Below, piece after piece: positions 24,869 through 34,100 of a DNA stretch of 64,000 bases. The stretch covers positions 372,001-436,000 of the forward strand of contig NZ_CP011029.1 of NCBI RefSeq assembly GCF_002221525.1, in the 5' to 3' direction. Below the pieces are notes generated by a model that worked only from the letters and a program-made list of their open reading frames with translations, was not told where the DNA came from and made no database searches. The stretch is from Pseudoalteromonas espejiana DSM 9414. Its GTDB lineage: Bacteria; Pseudomonadota; Gammaproteobacteria; Enterobacterales; Alteromonadaceae. The translations under genes were made by a program, and so were the position numbers. Position 1 is the stretch's first letter. Each line of letters starts with the position of its first letter.

Positions 24869-25171
24869 CTCTCAAGGTTGATGATAAGCTTGGGAGGGTG
24901 ATATTTTTACAGAACAAGGTGTTTTTTAACCTTAAATTAAGTAAATAGAGCTATTACACAAAAATGAGCCAAAAGTATTAACCTAAGCTGAACACCTTGT
25001 CGTAGTTACATTTGTTGCTTTTTTTTATGAGTAATTAAATTGTCTTTATTTTTTTGTGTTGCATTTTTTTATAAATTCGATAATTCTAGTTACATATTCA
25101 AGGAAGAATAAATCAAGTCAACAGCTTAGCTTTGTGCTTTCTTGCCTTTTTAACGTACAAGGAATTACCTC
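24869..25171. promoter_or_regulatory. Leader region of the envelope operon, with an inverted repeat
   Basis: This AT-rich region must contain the promoter of the large envelope operon. It holds a 10-bp inverted repeat ACAAGGTGTT (24914-24923) and AACACCTTGT (24991-25000) with a 67-base spacer. The left arm is part of AGAACAAGGTGTTTTT, which recurs at 46129-46144 in the other orientation. TTGCAT at 25059 and GATAAT at 25079 could be promoter elements, but the spacing (14) is short. Confidence 0.4.
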
Positions 25172-25900
25172 ATGAAAAAAGCTATTTTATCTGCAGTTAT
25201 CTTCGCCCCCCTTTTTGCCGGTTGTGTATCGACTACCGATACAAGTACAGTTGCTAATTTAGACAGAAATGCAGCGGTCGCAGAATTAACAACTCGTATG
25301 GACACTTTAGGTTATTCTCACCCGGTAACAGTTCAAGTCGGTATTGACGAATTTTTAAACATGTCGGCAATTATACTTGAGCGTCAACGTAAAGTTATGG
25401 GTGAATATCGCACTCAAACAGATAACTACCGTGATGTACAAGCCTTTTTATATGCCCATCAAGAATCTACACCTGAACAGCTTCAATCAGCTATTGCTGA
25501 ATTTGATGCTGGTGCAAAAAATAAAGATGAAGAAATTGGTCATAAAATCGCAGCTTATAATTTGGCGAATGAGGGAATTTATCAGCAAAATGTTGAACTT
25601 GCGACTGATTTAACTGTTGAAATAGCTAAGTCAGCTTATATTTTAAGCCAGCACAGCACTGCTATAGCGCAAGTTACAGCTGTGAAGATGGGTGGAAAAT
25701 ACTTAACCAATTGGCTATCAAGTGAGGAAGAAAATACGGATGCTCCAACAGAAGAAGATCCTAAAGACATAGGCACTGCACTTATTAAAGCAAAAGATCA
25801 GCTTGCATTAGCACTTGAAGCTAATGAAATTATAGAGCTTGAGCAAGCAACAATTACAGCTATAAATGAGCTACAACTTGAGCAAGAAGCGAAAGGCTAA
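25172..25900 (+). CDS. Outer-membrane lipoprotein of unknown function, first gene of the envelope operon
   Basis: A 242-residue predicted lipoprotein with lipobox LFAGC (Cys 18). The mature part is mostly helical, with long acidic and Gln-rich stretches and an EEENTDAPTEEDP acidic linker near the C-terminus; it lacks a recognised domain. A good AAGGAA site precedes the start. The stop overlaps the next start by one base (TAATG), so it is coupled to the LPP20-like gene. Confidence 0.8.
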   Translation: MKKAILSAVIFAPLFAGCVSTTDTSTVANLDRNAAVAELTTRMDTLGYSHPVTVQVGIDEFLNMSAIILERQRKVMGEYRTQTDNYRDVQAFLYAHQESTPEQLQSAIAEFDAGAKNKDEEIGHKIAAYNLANEGIYQQNVELATDLTVEIAKSAYILSQHSTAIAQVTAVKMGGKYLTNWLSSEEENTDAPTEEDPKDIGTALIKAKDQLALALEANEIIELEQATITAINELQLEQEAKG

Positions 25901-26802
25901 TGAAAACGAGCATTTTTGCTTTTTTAATAGCATTTGCTTTTAGTTGTTCTGCTCAAAACTGGCCTGATTGGGTAACCCAACCGCAAAAAAGTGATGAATA
26001 TATTACTGCGGTTGGCATAGGTGAAAGTCGCTTAGCTGCAAAGCAAGCGGCTTTAGCCGATATTATCACTCAATTAAGTGTTGATGTAAGTACGCAGCAA
26101 CTACAAAAGCTAACAAAGCAGGATAACCAATCAAGCAACTATTTTGAACAAGCAACTACTTTAACTAGCTTACCGTTTACATTGACTGGGCTAGAGGAAC
26201 TTAATGCGCTTGAGGAAAATAACTTATTTGCTTTAAAAGTGGGTGTTAAGAAATCGATTTTAATAAAAAACCTTAAATCTGATTTATCAAAGTTATCTCG
26301 TATTTCTACGCCAAAAAACAACACCGAGCAGCGCTTTATTTGGGCGCTTAAAAATAGTGGTGAACTTAATGTTGCGACAAAAAAATTAGCAATATTAGAG
26401 CACCTTTCCGGGCCTAAGTTATTTATTCAATCGACTTTAAATAATTTATTAAATGAGCAAGCAAAAGCATTGAGTGCTATTTCTTGCGATGTGATAGGTG
26501 CTAATAATATTAGCGCGATTAAATCTGCACTCAATAATGCACTCCCTCATAGCGGCGATACACGCTTATGGGTGCGCCCTCAAATACGCTGGCAGTATGC
26601 TAAATCTAATAATAAATACTCTGCCAAAGCTATTTTAACTCTAGCGCTTACGCGTAGTTCAACCCCTTTTAAAGTGTTATTGCAACAGGAACTTGTTGCG
26701 CAAGAAAGCGCTGCAACACAAGAAAATGCAAAGCAAAAAGCAATTAATAATTTAGTACAACAACTTAAAGCGCCTGCAAGCGATTGGCTGTTTGATATTT
26801 AG
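25900..26802 (+). CDS. LPP20-like exported protein
   Basis: A 300-residue exported protein. The N-terminal signal could be cleaved after CSA. Residues 20-140 match the LPP20 pattern: WPDWVTQP, a GIGES segment, then AKQAALADIITQLSV. The pattern is shared with the last gene of this operon. LPP20 domains occur in FlgP, an outer-membrane flagellar ring lipoprotein in Vibrio and Campylobacter. The C-terminal half is not recognised. It is coupled to both neighbours. Confidence 0.75.
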   Translation: MKTSIFAFLIAFAFSCSAQNWPDWVTQPQKSDEYITAVGIGESRLAAKQAALADIITQLSVDVSTQQLQKLTKQDNQSSNYFEQATTLTSLPFTLTGLEELNALEENNLFALKVGVKKSILIKNLKSDLSKLSRISTPKNNTEQRFIWALKNSGELNVATKKLAILEHLSGPKLFIQSTLNNLLNEQAKALSAISCDVIGANNISAIKSALNNALPHSGDTRLWVRPQIRWQYAKSNNKYSAKAILTLALTRSSTPFKVLLQQELVAQESAATQENAKQKAINNLVQQLKAPASDWLFDI

Positions 26803-26810
26803 GAATAAAA

Positions 26811-27941
26811 ATGAAATTAATAAAAAATTTAACTTTATCAGCATTAACACTTGCCCTAATAGCTGGTTGTAACTCTACACCAAAACAAGGGAGCTCTACT
26901 CAACAGGGTAATGTGAGTAATAATGCTTCTAATGTTGTTATAGCTAAAAGTGCATATATATTTAATGACGCAGATATAGCTATGCCAGCGTATTTTGATA
27001 CACAAGGTTTAGAGCGTTGTACGTTTGATGTAAATAATGAAACCGATAGTTGCCCACTTAAAAAACCCATAGTACGCATGTACTTTGACTTAGCAGGCGT
27101 GAGTGGTAGTGGCATAGGCGTTGATGCAATGCGTGAGTTTGATAATCAAAATTTATTGCTTATGCTCGAAAATCAATTTGCAGGTATTAACCGCTTCAGA
27201 ATAGTAACGCGTGATGATGATGCTATTTCAAAAGAGCAGCAATTAATTTTACAACAGCAAGGCGTAAAAACAGCAGCTAAACGCGCTGAAGTTAAGGCGT
27301 TGATCCCCGATTTTGTCGTAAAAATTGATTCACTAAGAACGCTAAAAACTGAAGGAGCGATCACAGATTGGGCCGATTATACATTAGAGCTGACAACTGG
27401 CGTTATAAACCCACAAACACGTGAAAAGCTATCTCATCCTAATTTAGGTAAAATTCGTGTTAAATCAGAAGATGTACGTGATCGCTCAGAGTTAAAATTT
27501 ACAACTGTAAGCGGACGCTATGCAGCGGGTTTCCATTTTGATCAAAGTGCCCATGTTAATGCAGTGCTTAGTGATATGGGATCGCGCGGTATTGATATTT
27601 TACTTACACGTATGTTGAGTGAAATGCCAGCAACAGCGCAAGTGTTAGGTATTAAAGGAAATAAAATTAGTTTAGATCGTGGCCAAAATGCGGGTGTATT
27701 ACCTAATGAAACAATGATCGTTTTTAGCTATGAAGCTGGATTTGTTGAGCCAATTGGCGTTGCAAATGTAAATCCTTCACGCAGTAGCGCAAATGGTGAA
27801 ATTATTCGCTGGAAAGACTCTAATGCAGCAGATGATGTTAAAAATAAAGCTAAAAATGGTATTTATCGACCATCAAATGGATCAAAAATATTTGCTGTTT
27901 CTGTAGGAACTCCTGCTGACTTTTTGGAGAATAGAACATGA
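26811..27941 (+). CDS. Lipoprotein with CsgG-like and FlgT-C-like parts
   Basis: A 376-residue predicted lipoprotein (LIAGC, Cys 20). Residues about 85-240 resemble the CsgG/FlgO core: a Gly-rich SGSGIG turn, a helix, an NRFRIVTRDD strand, EQQLILQQQG and a later PDFVVKID strand. Residues about 290-365 resemble the C-terminal domain of FlgT (GNKISLDRGQNAGVLPNE, then an S-x-A-x-GEI strand). A pore or ring role is inferred from these resemblances only. Its stop overlaps the next start as ATGA. Confidence 0.7.
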   Translation: MKLIKNLTLSALTLALIAGCNSTPKQGSSTQQGNVSNNASNVVIAKSAYIFNDADIAMPAYFDTQGLERCTFDVNNETDSCPLKKPIVRMYFDLAGVSGSGIGVDAMREFDNQNLLLMLENQFAGINRFRIVTRDDDAISKEQQLILQQQGVKTAAKRAEVKALIPDFVVKIDSLRTLKTEGAITDWADYTLELTTGVINPQTREKLSHPNLGKIRVKSEDVRDRSELKFTTVSGRYAAGFHFDQSAHVNAVLSDMGSRGIDILLTRMLSEMPATAQVLGIKGNKISLDRGQNAGVLPNETMIVFSYEAGFVEPIGVANVNPSRSSANGEIIRWKDSNAADDVKNKAKNGIYRPSNGSKIFAVSVGTPADFLENRT

Positions 27942-29305
27942 TCAAAAAGCTTGGCTTATTAGCATTATGCTCTTTGAGTGCACAAGCTCAAGTGGATGTA
28001 TTAGCTGATGGTACGCTACAAACTCAGGCGTGTGCATATGGACGAGGCGCTACGGCTATTTCGGGTGCAAAAGCTCAGGCTAGTGCTGAGCTTATAAGTT
28101 TTATTAAAGGTAATAAAAGCCTTACAACCCAAAGTGCGCAGCAACATTTAACAACAAGTTTAGATAATGATGCCGCCAGCTTATATGAGCAGCAACGCAC
28201 TTCGATGATTGAAGGTTTGAGTGCCGGTGCCGTTCCTTTAAATTACTCAACACCTACGCTTAGCGGAAACGACACGTGCATGACTGTAAGTCTTAATCCG
28301 CAAGAGTTAGCAGAGCCGCAAGAGCAAAACTGGCAGCAAACTACTCAAAATATTAGTGTGACAGTAATAGGCCAAGGCTGGAAAAAAGAAGGTAAAACAG
28401 CACTGACGATTGCAGAGCAAGATGCTCTGCAACGTGCTGTATCGCAAGTGGTAGGTGTGTGGCTTACTCAGCAGCATACGCAATCATCAAGCACGAGTAT
28501 GAATATTGTTGACGGTAACGAATCAACAAACATGCAAGAGCTAATAGGGCAACAACTTTCGAGTCATAGTGAAGGGCTTGTTAAAGAGTGGCAAACGCTG
28601 GAAACCAAAGAACTGCAAAATGGTGGTGTGGAAGTCACCATTATGGCTGTGGTAGAAAAAGCACCTCTCATTCAAAAAGCATCCAAGTTACTGAGCATGA
28701 TTGGTTCGCCTAGAGTGCAAGTTATTGCGCCAGAACCATTAAAAACAGAGCTAAAAGTTTGGTTAAACGAGCAAGGTATTGAAGTTGGTAACGCGGCTAG
28801 TTTAGTTATTTATGCAAAGTCCACAGTGATTAGCCGAGGTAACAACAGGCAGCTTTATTTAACTGCTGACGTTAGAGATTTAGCTGGAAATATTTATGGC
28901 CAGTGGAAAAACGATCCTTCATTTATGTCGTTGCCTAATGACCCTTACGTAGAAAAAGATTTAATGACAGTACATTTGGCGAGTGAGTCACAGTCAAAGG
29001 CACTTCATAACACGCTTAATAATGCATTTACTCAAGTTGTTGCAAGAGGGGGGTTGGTTCGTGAAATCATGCTGCCAAGCAATAAGCTAACGCAACCAGA
29101 AAAATTGCATGATGTATTAAGTACGTTAGGTGGAGTGAGCGATGTATCTATACATAAACAGCAAAAATATACCGTAGCCAGCCTTAGATTTAAAGGTAAT
29201 ACCGGTGAACTTGCTCATGCGCTCGATCAGGCGCTCATAACAATAACAGCAAAAAACCTTTCAAAAATTACAGTCGAAGACGATTTTACACTCAGGTACA
29301 AATAA
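27938..29305 (+). CDS. Exported protein with a FlgT-N-like repeat
   Basis: A 455-residue exported protein with a signal peptide ending near AQA. Two regions have the FlgT-N/LPP20 type pattern of a GxA start, an Ala-rich helix and a mixed strand: about 25-120 (ACAYGRGATAISGAKAQASA) and about 145-250 (TVIGQGWKKEG, then AEQDALQRAVSQVVGVW). The rest is unrecognised. It is coupled upstream (ATGA) and lies 6 bases before the next gene. I infer a structural role. Confidence 0.65.
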   Translation: MIKKLGLLALCSLSAQAQVDVLADGTLQTQACAYGRGATAISGAKAQASAELISFIKGNKSLTTQSAQQHLTTSLDNDAASLYEQQRTSMIEGLSAGAVPLNYSTPTLSGNDTCMTVSLNPQELAEPQEQNWQQTTQNISVTVIGQGWKKEGKTALTIAEQDALQRAVSQVVGVWLTQQHTQSSSTSMNIVDGNESTNMQELIGQQLSSHSEGLVKEWQTLETKELQNGGVEVTIMAVVEKAPLIQKASKLLSMIGSPRVQVIAPEPLKTELKVWLNEQGIEVGNAASLVIYAKSTVISRGNNRQLYLTADVRDLAGNIYGQWKNDPSFMSLPNDPYVEKDLMTVHLASESQSKALHNTLNNAFTQVVARGGLVREIMLPSNKLTQPEKLHDVLSTLGGVSDVSIHKQQKYTVASLRFKGNTGELAHALDQALITITAKNLSKITVEDDFTLRYK

Positions 29306-29311
29306 GGATAG

Positions 29312-30610
29312 ATGATGAAATTGAAAATATTAACATTAGCAATGGTTTTGGCTATGCCTGCAATCGCAGCAGAAGAGTTTAGCTTAACAGATATGATCCC
29401 AGCTCGCCCTGGCGCACAAGTAGCGGGTGCTGAACAAGCACAGGTTTCTGGCGATGTAGTGGTTGCAAAAGATACAAACGTTGCAGTTGCTGTTGCTCAT
29501 CAGGCACTAATGGATGATAACGAAGACGGTATTAAAATGATTCAGGTTGGCAGCGGCACCGGTATTTTATCTATTGGTAGTGCCAGTTATAGCACCTACG
29601 ACAATATGAATGCGACCTTGCTGTCTAAACGCGGTGCTTATAACCAAGCTTATTTAATTGCAAAAAAACAGTTAATTGAAAATATGAAAGGTGTTGAACA
29701 TCAATGTAGCAATGTAGTGTCTGCTAGAATGGATGTTATTGATACGGGCGTTGAAGGTACGGCAAACGAACAAACTAATATGATGGAAGCATGTACAGAG
29801 TCTGTATCGGGTTCGCTTGCGGGTTTTGTTACATATGACGTGTACGACAATATTGATGAAAAAGGTGTACGTGTAAGTTTAATATCTACTCCTAAAACGC
29901 GTTCACAAATTAAAGGGAACCGTGGTGCAGTAGCTGTTACTACTGAGCCAAATGTAATTTTTCAGCAAGTAATTGGAGATGTAAAAAGCGGCGTTTTACC
30001 TCCTGTAGGTGCAAAAGTACTGACTAATGCAGATACTGGCGAAGTAATTATACTTGGTTATGGTTCTGCAATTGCTCGTCAAAATAGAAATAGTAATGTT
30101 GCTCGCAAGCTTAAAGGCGTTGCTAAATCACAATCGCAAACACGCGCGCGTTCTGCGTTGCTTGCCACTATTCAAGGTGAAAAAGTGTATTGGCAAGGTA
30201 GCTTTGACGAAAAGCAAATGGAAGGTACTAAGCAATTTGAATATGAGGACCCATATTTAAACGATCCGCAACAAGTTAAAATTCTTGAAGAAGACCGCAG
30301 TACATTTTTGAATCAATTAAAAACGTCAGACGAGTACTCAACAGTTGCTAAAGGTAAATTACCACCGGGTGTAAGTGTTAAAAGCTTTGCAAGTGATGAT
30401 GGATTTTGGCAATACAGCGTAGCTGTTTATGCGCCAAGTTTAGAGGCAACAGCACGCAAGGCAGCTAAAGAGATGGAAGGTAATAATGGCCAAACTGTTA
30501 ACGGTGTAAGTCACTATGGCCACAAAATAAAAGCACACGGGGGTTTAAACGAAAAAGCGGCTAACCCTCAGGGTGCATCAGGTAAAGTAGCGAGCGAAAA
30601 GGAACTTTAA
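29312..30610 (+). CDS. Exported protein of unknown function in the envelope operon
   Basis: A 432-residue exported protein with a signal peptide ending AIAA. Residues about 105-200 have an AYNQAYLIAKKQLIENM helix followed by a SVSGSLAGFVTYDVYDN strand, again like a FlgT-N/LPP20 module. Two ATGs are adjacent; the second (29315) has better spacing to AAGGA. The tail is rich in Gly, Lys and Asn. Its stop overlaps the next start (TAATG). I do not recognise a named family. Confidence 0.65.
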   Translation: MMKLKILTLAMVLAMPAIAAEEFSLTDMIPARPGAQVAGAEQAQVSGDVVVAKDTNVAVAVAHQALMDDNEDGIKMIQVGSGTGILSIGSASYSTYDNMNATLLSKRGAYNQAYLIAKKQLIENMKGVEHQCSNVVSARMDVIDTGVEGTANEQTNMMEACTESVSGSLAGFVTYDVYDNIDEKGVRVSLISTPKTRSQIKGNRGAVAVTTEPNVIFQQVIGDVKSGVLPPVGAKVLTNADTGEVIILGYGSAIARQNRNSNVARKLKGVAKSQSQTRARSALLATIQGEKVYWQGSFDEKQMEGTKQFEYEDPYLNDPQQVKILEEDRSTFLNQLKTSDEYSTVAKGKLPPGVSVKSFASDDGFWQYSVAVYAPSLEATARKAAKEMEGNNGQTVNGVSHYGHKIKAHGGLNEKAANPQGASGKVASEKEL

Positions 30611-31323
30611 TGCTAGCACCTATTTTAGCGCTTTCGTTGGTGGCTTCGCCCACCTTCGACTCAGAGCAAACAATTGAACAACAAACTGCTTTTTTTAAAA
30701 GTCAGGCTAATGGACAATACGCCCGAGTAATAGCGTTAAAATCGAGTGCAAAAAGTGCGCTTGAGCAGGCATGTCGAATTGCTTTGACCCTGCCACAGCG
30801 CAGTATTATAAAAAATACTTTAGCTAAAAAACTTAATATTACTTTGCCAGAGTCGGTAAGCTTTATTGACGCTGAAATTACGGACTATAAGCAAGAAAAG
30901 CAGCAAGATTGGTTAACTTGTACTGGCGTTGTAACACCTGCTGCGCACGATATTAACGAAGCTGGACTTGCTGTTAGAGCAGCATGGCAAGTAGGTAGTC
31001 AAAAAGATAAAACAAACTTACGCCCTTTATTACAAGTTGCATTGAATCACCCAACAACGATGTCTGATGCGGTGGCATTAGTTGCAGATCAATCACCAGA
31101 AGAGCAACGCTTAAGCTATCTCGATAAATATTTAAAAGCGGGTGAGTTAAAACTCGATGAAGCTAAAGCGTCAGTTGCACAAACGTGGCTTGTTAATAAG
31201 CGCTATAAGCAAGTTATTTCACTAACCCAGCAATGCGAAAGTATAGACTGTAAGCGTTTAAACTTAGCCGCTCAAACTGAGTTTGATAATCTGCCTGCTG
31301 ATGATTTAAGTAGTTATTTTTAA
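30610..31323 (+). CDS. Exported protein of unknown function in the envelope operon
   Basis: A 237-residue protein with a short hydrophobic start (PILALSLVASP) that may be a signal peptide. A CRIALTLP region and paired cysteines (about 57, 106, 217 and 222) suggest periplasmic disulfides. The C-terminal part has a TPR-like helical look. A good AAGGAA site overlaps the end of the preceding gene. No function is recognised. Confidence 0.6.
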   Translation: MLAPILALSLVASPTFDSEQTIEQQTAFFKSQANGQYARVIALKSSAKSALEQACRIALTLPQRSIIKNTLAKKLNITLPESVSFIDAEITDYKQEKQQDWLTCTGVVTPAAHDINEAGLAVRAAWQVGSQKDKTNLRPLLQVALNHPTTMSDAVALVADQSPEEQRLSYLDKYLKAGELKLDEAKASVAQTWLVNKRYKQVISLTQQCESIDCKRLNLAAQTEFDNLPADDLSSYF

Positions 31324-31342
31324 TTTTATAGGGATATAAAAA

Positions 31343-32560
31343 ATGCACTCAAAAGTTAAAATACTACTAAATGTTAGCGCCTTAGCTTGTTTCACACTGA
31401 GCTTAAATAACTTAGCGCAAACAAGTGACGAGGCCGACTTTGAGGCTTTTTTAAAAAAGCGCCAAAGTGAGTTTAGTCAGTATGAACAACAACAAAAGCA
31501 AGAATTTGAAGCGTTTGTAAGTGCTTGGCATGATGCGCAAAACGCATATTTAAAACAAGTAACCCAAAAGTGGCAAGACCCAAATCTGCCAAGCTCAAAA
31601 GTGTGGGTAAAATACAGTGATGATTTAAATAAACGCACCAGTGTAAATTTTGAAAGTGGTGAAGTCGTAGTTGAGTTATTAAATAGCCAAAACGACGAGC
31701 AAGCTGTTAAATATGCAAAAGATCAATTAAATGAGCTTTCGCAAGTAACAGTAGATAAAACACTTGCAAATGATCCGGTTTATATTGCGGCTAATAATAC
31801 CATTAATAGCAAAATTTTCACTTCGACGGGTAAGCCTGTAAATAGAAAAATTGAGAAAAATAAGCCATCAGCAGCGACTCAACCTAAAAAAATAGCCGAG
31901 CAAACTGTACTCTCTACAGAGATTGTAAAAGAGGTGCTGACTGCCAAGGCGCCTGTTATAACTAAGCAAAAAGGCAGAGTAAAAATTAGCTACCAATTGC
32001 CTGCTAATACACTTTCCAATCAAGCCAAACGTTATTTACCTGATGTGCAGCAACAAGCTAAACGTTATAACTTAGATCCCGCATTATTATTGGCAATTAT
32101 ACATACAGAATCAAGCTTTAACCCGCTTGCACGTTCGCCAATTCCTGCTTTTGGTTTAATGCAAATAGTGCCTACTTCAGCGGGTAAAGATGTGAGCAAC
32201 TTTTTGCAAGGTAAACCGCTATTACTTAGCCCTGAGTATTTATTTCAGGCAGATAATAACGTAGAGGCAGGGAGTACTTATGTGCATATTTTAAGTAATC
32301 GTTACTTTAAAAATGTACGTAACGAGCAATCAAGAATCTACATGAGTATTGCAGCTTATAATACTGGCCCAGGTAACGTAGCCAAAACGTTAAGTGGTTC
32401 TAAATCACTTAATCAGGCAAGTATTGCTGCTAATTCAATGTCTGCAGAGAAAATTTATACCTTAATGGTTAACAACTTACCTGCGCAAGAAACCCGAAAT
32501 TATTTACAAAAAGTGGTTAAACGCACCGCTTATTATCAAAAGCAATTGAAAGGAATTTAA
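31343..32560 (+). CDS. mltC: MltC-like lytic murein transglycosylase
   Basis: A 405-residue exported enzyme. The N-terminal part (about 25-170) is a DUF3393-like domain with a Gln/Glu-rich coiled region; the SLT domain starts at about 230 with the catalytic Glu 256 in HTESSFNP, then GLMQIVP and AAYNTGPGNVA. It cleaves glycan strands of peptidoglycan to anhydro-muropeptides. Unlike E. coli MltC the lipobox is not canonical (ALAC), so it may be soluble. Its place in this operon suggests that it opens the wall for a protein assembly. Confidence 0.85.
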   Translation: MHSKVKILLNVSALACFTLSLNNLAQTSDEADFEAFLKKRQSEFSQYEQQQKQEFEAFVSAWHDAQNAYLKQVTQKWQDPNLPSSKVWVKYSDDLNKRTSVNFESGEVVVELLNSQNDEQAVKYAKDQLNELSQVTVDKTLANDPVYIAANNTINSKIFTSTGKPVNRKIEKNKPSAATQPKKIAEQTVLSTEIVKEVLTAKAPVITKQKGRVKISYQLPANTLSNQAKRYLPDVQQQAKRYNLDPALLLAIIHTESSFNPLARSPIPAFGLMQIVPTSAGKDVSNFLQGKPLLLSPEYLFQADNNVEAGSTYVHILSNRYFKNVRNEQSRIYMSIAAYNTGPGNVAKTLSGSKSLNQASIAANSMSAEKIYTLMVNNLPAQETRNYLQKVVKRTAYYQKQLKGI

Positions 32561-32561
32561 A

Positions 32562-33131
32562 ATGAAAAAATTATTACCAGTTATAGCCGCTTTAGCTTTA
32601 GGTGCGTGTTCAAGCACTGAAAACACACAATCTGCGCCATTGGCAAAAAACGATTCAGTACCAAGCTGGGTGTTATTGCCTGTGTCTGATAAAGGTTTAG
32701 CGTCGTCGACATGCGTTCCTTGGTCGGGCAGTATGTCTACCGACAGAGCACAAGCTATTGCGGCAGCTCGCGCCGATTTATCACAGCAAATACAGGTTAA
32801 AGCAAGCGTTATGGACAAGCTATATCAACGTAAAGCGCAAAGTAATGATGAGCTAAATGTTGGTGGAACGTTTGAGCAAGTAAGCAAGCAAGTTGCACAG
32901 CAAAGCCTTGTGGGCGCTGTGCCACAAGAAGTTGCCTTTGCTAAATTAGACGGTGTAAAACAGCTTTGTACATTCGTTGTAATGAGCAATACACAAGAAA
33001 CGTTTAATAACCTAGTCGCTCAATCTGGTAAGCGTTTAGATCCAAGTTCACGCGAAGCGCTTTACGAAGAGTTTAAAGCCCAAAAAGCAATGAAAGATCT
33101 TGAAAAAGAGTTAGATAATTTAAATAAATAA
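32562..33131 (+). CDS. LPP20 family lipoprotein, last gene of the envelope operon
   Basis: A 189-residue lipoprotein with lipobox LGAC (Cys 16). The mature part starts with VPSWV, has a short GLASSTCVPW insert and then AQAIAAARADLSQQIQVKA, the LPP20 pattern also seen in the second gene of the operon. The C-terminus is a charged coiled helix. The start lies one base after the transglycosylase stop and has AAGGAA. A strong terminator follows. Confidence 0.78.
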   Translation: MKKLLPVIAALALGACSSTENTQSAPLAKNDSVPSWVLLPVSDKGLASSTCVPWSGSMSTDRAQAIAAARADLSQQIQVKASVMDKLYQRKAQSNDELNVGGTFEQVSKQVAQQSLVGAVPQEVAFAKLDGVKQLCTFVVMSNTQETFNNLVAQSGKRLDPSSREALYEEFKAQKAMKDLEKELDNLNK

Positions 33132-33147
33132 TAGAAAATTCTTTATT

Positions 33148-33187
33148 ACTAGCTTAGTTTCTAACTCCGCTAAGCTAGTATTTTTTA
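33148..33187 (+). terminator. Intrinsic terminator of the envelope operon
   Basis: ACTAGCTTAG and CTAAGCTAGT pair perfectly and are followed by ATTTTTT. This marks the end of the eight-gene unit. Confidence 0.9.
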
Positions 33188-33209
33188 AAAGGAGTTATAA
33201 AGGACTAAA

Positions 33210-33458
33210 ATGAAAGATATATTCTTTTTTGATTCAATGTTAACCCCAAAAATAATTACATTCGTATACTGGTTAATTTTAATAGGTACTTTGATCTCAG
33301 GTGTTACAACTATGTTTGCTCAATATGGTGGTGGTTTCATTAGTGGTTTGGCCATAATTGTTGGTGGGGCAATTGGTGCACGTATATGGTGTGAGCTATT
33401 AATTGTATTATTTAAAATTCATGAAAATCTTCAAAAAATAGCTAATAAATCAGAATAA
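33210..33458 (+). CDS. DUF4282 small membrane protein
   Basis: An 82-residue inner-membrane protein with two transmembrane segments (about 15-35 and 42-68) and an RIWCELLIVLFKIHENL segment that is typical of DUF4282. The family function is unknown. It has an AGGA site and stands after the terminator of the envelope operon, so it is a separate unit. Confidence 0.75.
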   Translation: MKDIFFFDSMLTPKIITFVYWLILIGTLISGVTTMFAQYGGGFISGLAIIVGGAIGARIWCELLIVLFKIHENLQKIANKSE

Positions 33459-33599
33459 ATTTAAATTCTTATAAAGTAGTGGTTGCATTGAGTGCTACCA
33501 CCACTCTTAATCTTTGGCGCCCCAATCAACCTAAAAAGTAGTTGATATTATCAATTAATTTGTTATAGTTGATTTTGTCATCTATTTAACGCTTAAGGC

Positions 33600-34100
33600 A
33601 TGCCCAAAATGAGTACACCGCAATCAGCAAATCCAGAAATGGTTGAGCCTAAAAAAACACCTGTAATTTATAAAATACTAGTTATGGTAAGTATTATTAC
33701 AATTGTTGGCGGTTCTCTAACTGGCATTATGACTTATGTGAATGTAGGGGTTACAGAGCAGTTTTATGCAGATTGGTTTACCTCGTTTATAAGTGCAGTG
33801 CTGGTAATGGCGCCTATTGGTTTTATAATGATGACCTTAATGCATAAGCTAGTTAATAAGTTATTGCCTACTAGTAGCGAGCTAAAACGTAATTTAGTGA
33901 TTAGTGTTTTTATGGCGCTGATCATGGAGTCGGTAATGGCATTTGTTACTGCTATTAACAATATTGGTTATGCAGATATGCGTTTATTTTTAAATGGTTG
34001 GGCTGAAGGGCTACTTGCTGCTCTGCCCATAGGCCTTACTATAATGTTAATAATGTCGGTTACTGTAAAGCCTAAATTAGAGCGCTTTTTAAAAAGCTAA
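33600..34100 (+). CDS. DUF2798 domain-containing membrane protein
   Basis: A 166-residue membrane protein with four hydrophobic segments in two similar halves, each with an aromatic/Trp residue before a PIG- or GL-rich turn as in tandem DUF2798 repeats. ATG at 33600 is only two bases from AAGG; the ATG at 33609 is better spaced and may be the true start. The function is unknown. Confidence 0.7.
   Translation: MPKMSTPQSANPEMVEPKKTPVIYKILVMVSIITIVGGSLTGIMTYVNVGVTEQFYADWFTSFISAVLVMAPIGFIMMTLMHKLVNKLLPTSSELKRNLVISVFMALIMESVMAFVTAINNIGYADMRLFLNGWAEGLLAALPIGLTIMLIMSVTVKPKLERFLKS

Follow-up and report, generated by a model that had tools for sequence, protein, structure and literature searches.

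The H-ring of the Vibrio flagellar motor contains FlgO, FlgP and FlgT. According to PMC7990780, FlgT is a periplasmic protein, whereas FlgO and FlgP are lipoproteins of the outer membrane. The outer components of such motors, for example the basal disk, are thought to derive from broad envelope families (PMC12222027). The DNA considered here, which we call the window, is a stretch of 64,000 nucleotides from Pseudoalteromonas espejiana DSM 9414, located on the second contig of this two-contig genome (NZ_CP011029.1, positions 372,001 to 436,000). Within it lies an operon of eight genes, g1 to g8 (25172–33131), coding for exported proteins, several of which have domains or predicted folds of similar kinds. 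This operon is an envelope cassette, self-contained and spread by horizontal movement. Since the block is found again in various scattered marine bacteria, separate from flagellar genes, it may build a ring-like envelope structure of a hitherto unknown type. The reading that we favour, with a probability of roughly 0.45, is that the products form an outer-membrane-anchored periplasmic ring or scaffold made of flagellar-ring-type modules and provided with its own wall-cutting enzyme.

Organization of the operon

Eight open reading frames (ORFs) on the plus strand follow each other with overlaps of 1–4 bases or gaps of 1–19 bases. The g1/g2 and g5/g6 junctions are TAATG overlaps, the g3/g4 junction is an ATGA overlap, and 19 bases separate g6 from g7. 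The first gene, g1 (25172–25900), specifies a small lipoprotein of 242 amino acids with no known domain, and g2 (25900–26802) an exported LPP20-family protein of 300 residues. The product of g3 (26811–27941) is a 376-residue lipoprotein with a predicted CsgG/FlgT-middle-like fold and a C-terminal domain that is perhaps FlgT-C-like. This is followed by g4 (27938–29305), encoding an exported protein of 455 residues in which two LPP20/FlgT-N-like units and a C-terminal part can be made out by eye, and by g5 (29312–30610), whose exported product of 432 residues looks like two LPP20/FlgT-N (SHS2) units in its model. The exported g6 protein (30610–31323; 237 residues) has four invariant cysteines; g7 (31343–32560) encodes an MltC-type lytic transglycosylase of 405 residues with the catalytic Glu context, and g8 (32562–33131) a lipoprotein of 189 residues related to g2.

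The operon ends in a hairpin terminator (33147–33180, plus strand) with 12 pairs and a U run (−15.2 kcal/mol, z −3.86), which was equalled in none of 200 shuffles. An earlier reading of this DNA, made without database searches (the sequence-only reading), had pointed to the tight packing of the genes and to a single strong terminator, and the coordinates and the 12-pair stem bear out both. The hairpin was not listed by a simple site scan because its loop of 10 exceeds the limit of 8 used there; in that scan promoter-like and terminator-like sites were no commoner than in shuffles (promoter-like sites: 26 vs 25.6).

Distribution and mobility

Scanning named genomes for g5 provided 39 loci, 32 of which hold all eight genes together while the neighbourhoods change. 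Because the same eight genes recur in this way in other genomes, the operon is more than a chance assembly. Among the partial loci, L032 is devoid of g7, L031 has g1, g3, g4, g5 and g6, and L015 shows g4-g5-g6 at the start of its contig, where the following 4 kb contain neither g7 nor g8. Four loci are alphaproteobacterial and possess one to four of the genes (L033, L035, L038 and L039; three on cut-off stretches). In L006 g7 is separate, upstream and on the other strand. In the Shewanella loci L004, L005 and L006 an extra membrane-protein-like gene lies next to g7 or in the interval separating it from g6.

The gene order is g1-g2-g3 in the group of Pseudoalteromonas, Idiomarina and Colwellia and g2-g1-g3 in that of Vibrio and Photobacterium, and Shewanella has both. 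No family of flanking genes is common to more than ten loci. A tree of g3 to g6 places Shewanella in two deep parts, and a single Shewanella clade is rejected (p-AU 1.6e-14); the trees omit L001, L015, L033, L035, L038 and L039, each of which is the own copy, cut off or from SAR116, and the clade test also omits L031. The incidence of g5 is 5/108 in genomes of the genus, 14/295 in the family, 4/295 in the order and 2/369 in the class, where each count includes the present genome and the last three are samples.

At the site occupied by the operon, two relatives are missing a stretch corresponding to 24869–33532 (no strand assigned), which includes a small DUF4282 gene (Pfam; 33210–33458) situated after the terminator. 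In these relatives (L081 and L083) LysE, a gene matching 33600–34100 of the window, and UvrA adjoin, and the short gap that follows LysE corresponds to window sequence from near 33533 onwards. As LysE directly precedes the counterpart of the 33600 gene, approximately 24869–33532 was either inserted here or lost there. In L085 and L086 LysE adjoins UvrA without the 33600 gene, and other relatives differ further at this site. Near the ends of the stretch lies a 7-base inverted match (GGTTGAT at 24876–24882, ATCAACC at 33525–33531), which may be due to chance. The small gene past the terminator varies, being of the DUF4282 type in the window and of the DUF4234 type in Pseudoalteromonas sp. HL-AS1 (L104:12954–13424). 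A relative without g5 has, near UvrA, a gene for a lipoprotein 27% identical to g8 (L082:9712–10263).

The base composition does not point to a recent arrival, the operon having 39.3% G+C and its 10 kb flanks 41.2% and 40.3%. Phages and plasmids were both rejected as carriers: g5 was found in no phage record and in a single plasmid record, that of a Pseudoalteromonas replicon of 805 kb typed as non-mobilizable. The PADLOC defence models yielded only marginal matches to Cas models for g2 (E 0.0014) and g1 (E 0.008), and none at E up to 0.01 for the other six proteins.

Core and extended versions

An all-or-none cassette, with g3 occurring only alongside g5, was rejected. In the family sample g3 is present in 27/295 genomes (up to six candidates scored per genome) and g5 in 14/295, and all 14 g5 genomes fall within the 27 (P 6e-17 by chance, ignoring kinship). 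The cassette consists of a core, g1-g2-g3 and often g4, and an extension, g5-g6-g7 and mostly g8; this division follows from 13 genomes that hold g1-g2-g3 without g5-g6-g7 (L105–L117). In the stretches taken from these, g1 is found in 13/13, always beside g3, g2 in 12/13 and g8 in 4/13; g1 also occurs in the eight-gene cassette and in a g1-g3 pair form. A shorter g4-like gene is recognized in 7/13 at E 1e-3, and those of L110 and L114 are similar by eye only. The same stretches gave no match to g5 or g6 and one match to the g7 profile (L112, E 9e-7), which has no Pfam SLT domain, so that no true g7 was found. Two of the stretches come from short contigs (L117, 5.9 kb; L106, 14 kb), where genes may be missed. 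Among the neighbouring products scanned are a GlmU-like enzyme, an aromatic amino acid lyase accompanied by urocanase, and proteins of the DUF3482/DUF2868 kind.

A further version occurs in SAR116-type bacteria, in which g5 is 39–41% identical. One of these loci (L033:5077–13569) encodes, in this order, an exported protein, a protein over the cut-off for Pfam CsgG, g5, and a weak match to g6; among the products of divergent genes are one of SLT type, a small protein with a single helix and two exported proteins (275 and 300 residues). A g4 profile built without the SAR116 sequences detects just one of the CsgG-bearing proteins, and that weakly (L035, E 0.0018).

Protein families and predicted folds

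The sequence-only reading had taken the second and last genes to be LPP20-like. This holds for g2 at the level of Pfam LPP20 (E 5.4e-12, 46.4 bits, cut-off 25.9), and for g8 by way of g2: its own Pfam LPP20 score is sub-threshold (E 0.38, 11.7 bits), and profile-profile comparison relates it to g2 with a probability of 96.2 over 67 columns. The FlgT-N character proposed for g4 proved weaker than claimed. Its Pfam LPP20 match is sub-threshold (E 0.42), and of 51 homologues nine match LPP20 (best 7e-4) and five FlgT_N (best 0.015) when E values up to 0.1 are admitted. None of the eight operon proteins matches Pfam FlgT_N at E 1, and Pfam gave nothing meaningful for g1, g3, g5 and g6.

The predicted fold of g3 matches the FlgT middle domain and can be superposed, over 220 residues, on one chain of an LPHT-ring entry, which contains FlgT; one of the alignments to this entry also covers the C-terminal part. 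The likeness of g3 to FlgT and CsgG is one of predicted fold and is absent from sequence searches. There is no Pfam CsgG match over the cut-off in g3, and the list of 13 families matched by 40 g3 homologues (E up to 0.1) lacks CsgG. At that threshold LpoB appears in three of the 40 (best 7e-4), and the remaining families listed for the g3 and g4 homologues look like noise. Of the lipoprotein said to combine a CsgG/FlgO-like with a FlgT-C-like part, the first survives as a CsgG/FlgT-middle likeness of the modeled fold and not of sequence, and the second may be reflected in a single alignment. A kinship to FlgT recognizable from sequence was itself considered and discarded, profile comparisons of g1–g6 and g8 with FlgT, FlgP and FlgO being dominated by signal peptides in several pairs.

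For g5 the fold is less surely predicted. The best fold matches of its low-confidence model include Lpp20 and FlgT-N; 5ok8, HP1454 and Tip-alpha are among the structures matched. A comparison of its profile with PDB chains gave no sequence match at an E value of 1 or below. The model has a helix after the last strand and a stretch of 67 mostly low-confidence residues (288–354) between the main helix of the second unit and the next strand. Ring formation in SHS2-type folds is described in PMC12222027 as accompanying an insertion that lies after the SHS2 helix and ahead of the second strand; this is the place at which the stretch would sit in g5.

The N-termini are in agreement with the earlier view that all products are exported. 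A lipobox pattern is present near the N-terminus of g1 (33/34 ORFs assigned in loci), g3 (34/34) and g8 (33/33), and Cys18 of g1 is retained in 35/35 aligned sequences. The N-termini of g2, g4, g5, g6 and g7, read by eye, are signal-peptide-like; the lipobox pattern occurs in only 4/35 g7 ORFs. Beyond the lipobox, invariant cysteines are located at positions 70 and 81 in g3 (40/40 aligned), 32 and 114 in g4 (51/51), 132 and 161 in g5 (37/37), 55, 104, 209 and 214 in g6 (each 37/37), and 51 and 136 in g8 (34/34). On the simple reading, these even numbers would indicate periplasmic proteins held by disulfides.

The enzyme g7 was correctly recognized beforehand as MltC-like. It is over the cut-off for Pfam SLT (3.5e-23) and Mltc_N (2.1e-7), and in the PDB it is matched best by MltC structures (E 9.5e-39 to 1.9e-34). 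The motif E-S-x-F-N-P, with what we take to be the catalytic Glu, is conserved in 32 of the 35 ORFs assigned to g7; the three without it are L001, which is a cut-off copy, and two from SAR116. Against the MltC equivalog model g7 scores 177.3 bits, under the cut-off of 375.

Proposed structure

In the favoured reading, the lipoproteins g1, g3 and g8 would tie the assembly to the outer membrane. g3 would supply a middle unit, and perhaps also a C-terminal one, resembling those of FlgT, and g2, g4, g5 and g8 would contribute LPP20/SHS2-type units like the ring-forming ones of FlgP and FlgT. A ring-like core may be formed by g3 with g2 and g4 or one of them, which g5 and g6 would extend towards the wall, and g7 could trim the peptidoglycan where the g5-containing version assembles. 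We infer that the lipoproteins reside in the outer membrane, that a ring is formed, that the wall is opened, and that none of this depends upon the flagellum.

A number of points weigh against such a structure. The proposed ring or complex and its place in the cell are deduced from genes and predicted folds, and there is no inner-membrane, motor or ATPase part among the eight genes of the cassette. The g5 model is of low confidence, the LPP20/FlgT-N reading of g4 was made by eye, and the alignment of g3 with 8z5n has a root mean square deviation (rmsd) of 11.1, which indicates that the two domains are placed differently. Once the signal peptides are cut or domains compared, the profiles of g1–g6 and g8 against FlgT, FlgP and FlgO fall below significance; the pair g2-g8 is the exception, being significant in the domain comparison. 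FlgT-N and FlgP, which are said to share a fold (PMC12222027), reach only 8.7% in the same comparison, and the test is therefore blunt. Its second-highest pair was unexpected, namely g1 with FlgP (24% over 39 columns); the FlgT and FlgP sets hold this genome's own protein more than once, and the FlgO set is of two sequences. Lastly, FlgI is present in 27/27 carriers of the family sample vs 266/295 genomes overall (P 0.053, kinship ignored), which keeps a flagellar role under consideration.

A more specific version would see in the cassette a mobile non-flagellar machine, whose H-ring kit of FlgT-type lipoprotein, SHS2 units and MltC-type enzyme makes a ring or collar through the wall, with core and eight-gene versions. 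We put this forward tentatively, as an elaboration that is less likely than not.

Relation to flagellar genes and alternative functions

The alternative that survives best is that the cassette specifies an outer ring accessory to the polar flagellar motor, adding to or stiffening the H-ring while g7 clears the wall, with its genes lying apart from the flagellar cluster. In Vibrio, motX and motY are unlinked. The match of domain kinds to the H-ring is in its favour, as is the above incidence of FlgI in the family, which extends to 45 of the 47 handles of carriers; the list has some genomes both by handle and by locus, so that these are not 47 independent genomes. The two handles without FlgI are metagenome bins, of which one has FlhA and the other (G795, with five cassette genes) neither FlgI nor FlhA; the latter bin may be incomplete. 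In three of the 13 small-core genomes (G829, G862 and G949), moreover, the core is located some 7–20 kb from flgP/flgT, but the genes in between show no match to the flagellar set.

That set comprises the 81 ORFs found within 80 kb of sequence surrounding FlgI in a related Pseudoalteromonas, and comparison with 421 ORFs flanking the cassettes (up to 10 kb on each side; 38 of the 39 loci, L022 giving none) revealed no flagellar structural gene. Co-occurrence outside flagellar loci, which the sequence-only reading had required of a survey, is upheld for the 38 loci with flanks. Eight flank queries did match, namely a LysR protein, a histidine kinase, a sigma-54 activator, a response regulator, CheB, a methyladenine glycosylase, a ParA-type protein and an ABC ATPase. 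In P. espejiana itself, FlgT and a gene that we read as FlgP-like stand side by side on contig 1, and a FlgT_N search of the genome found this FlgT, on the other contig from the operon, as its sole match. FlgT_N was detected in 41 of 46 carriers tried, the exceptions being G780, G911, G993, G1044 and G795. Since G780 (Idiomarina loihiensis) has all eight genes, and G911 and G993 have g3 and g5, the cassette does not need FlgT. Its patchy occurrence in a mostly flagellated family argues in the same direction, and we consider a flagellar accessory ring unlikely. Taken together, the carriers without FlgT_N and those with FlgI signify that the cassette is neither tied to FlgT nor demonstrably flagellum-free.

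An improbable alternative is a peptidoglycan-remodelling complex without a defined ring, in which g3 would be an LpoB-like synthase activator, g7 would cut and the LPP20-type proteins would act as scaffolds. The LpoB matches of the three g3 homologues are consistent with this, as is the presence of the MltC-type enzyme with the other genes in 32/39 cassettes. However, L031, L032 and L015 have no g7, no true g7 was found with the small core, and g3 has the extra C-terminal domain, covered by one LPHT-ring alignment. Least probable of all is an outer-membrane secretion channel of the CsgG type, assisted by helper proteins in the periplasm, its substrate unlinked or included.

Comparison with known systems

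The operon was not described in the PMC literature searched, a scope in which subscription papers and preprints are mostly not represented; nor is it dealt with in the passages considered of PMC4207810, PMC12222027, PMC11756786, PMC7990780, PMC6375700 and PMC11962581. The domain families are known, whereas their arrangement, the mobility and the core/extension structure were not met in that literature. A mobile operon with similar kinds of domain away from flagellar genes would show which function such proteins have by themselves; alternatively, it would reveal an optional part of the motor that moves between species.

With the Vibrio H-ring (FlgO, FlgP, FlgT) the operon shares lipoproteins, a predicted FlgT-type fold and SHS2/LPP20-type units. 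It differs in that the FlgT-middle-like unit is carried by a lipoprotein, g3, apart from the LPP20-type proteins g2, g4, g5 and g8, in that g1, g6 and an MltC-type enzyme are added, and in its position outside a flagellar cluster in a genome with FlgT and FlgP-like genes elsewhere. The Helicobacter Lpp20 (HP1456)/FlgP family, with the SHS2 fold, resembles g2 through Pfam LPP20 and g5 through predicted fold matches, but the operon spreads several such units over four proteins. The resemblance to the hypothetical protein FTT1539c of Francisella tularensis (4qvr) concerns the fold alone (rmsd 8.4 at 15% identity, with a model of low confidence). MltC and g7 have in common Mltc_N, SLT and the catalytic Glu context, although g7 is under the equivalog score and the lipobox pattern is restricted to the few ORFs noted above. 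Finally, the middle domain of g3 is predicted to be similar to the CsgG/PelC/TolB-N/LptE fold group, from which g3 is set apart by having no Pfam CsgG match and by its additional C-terminal domain.

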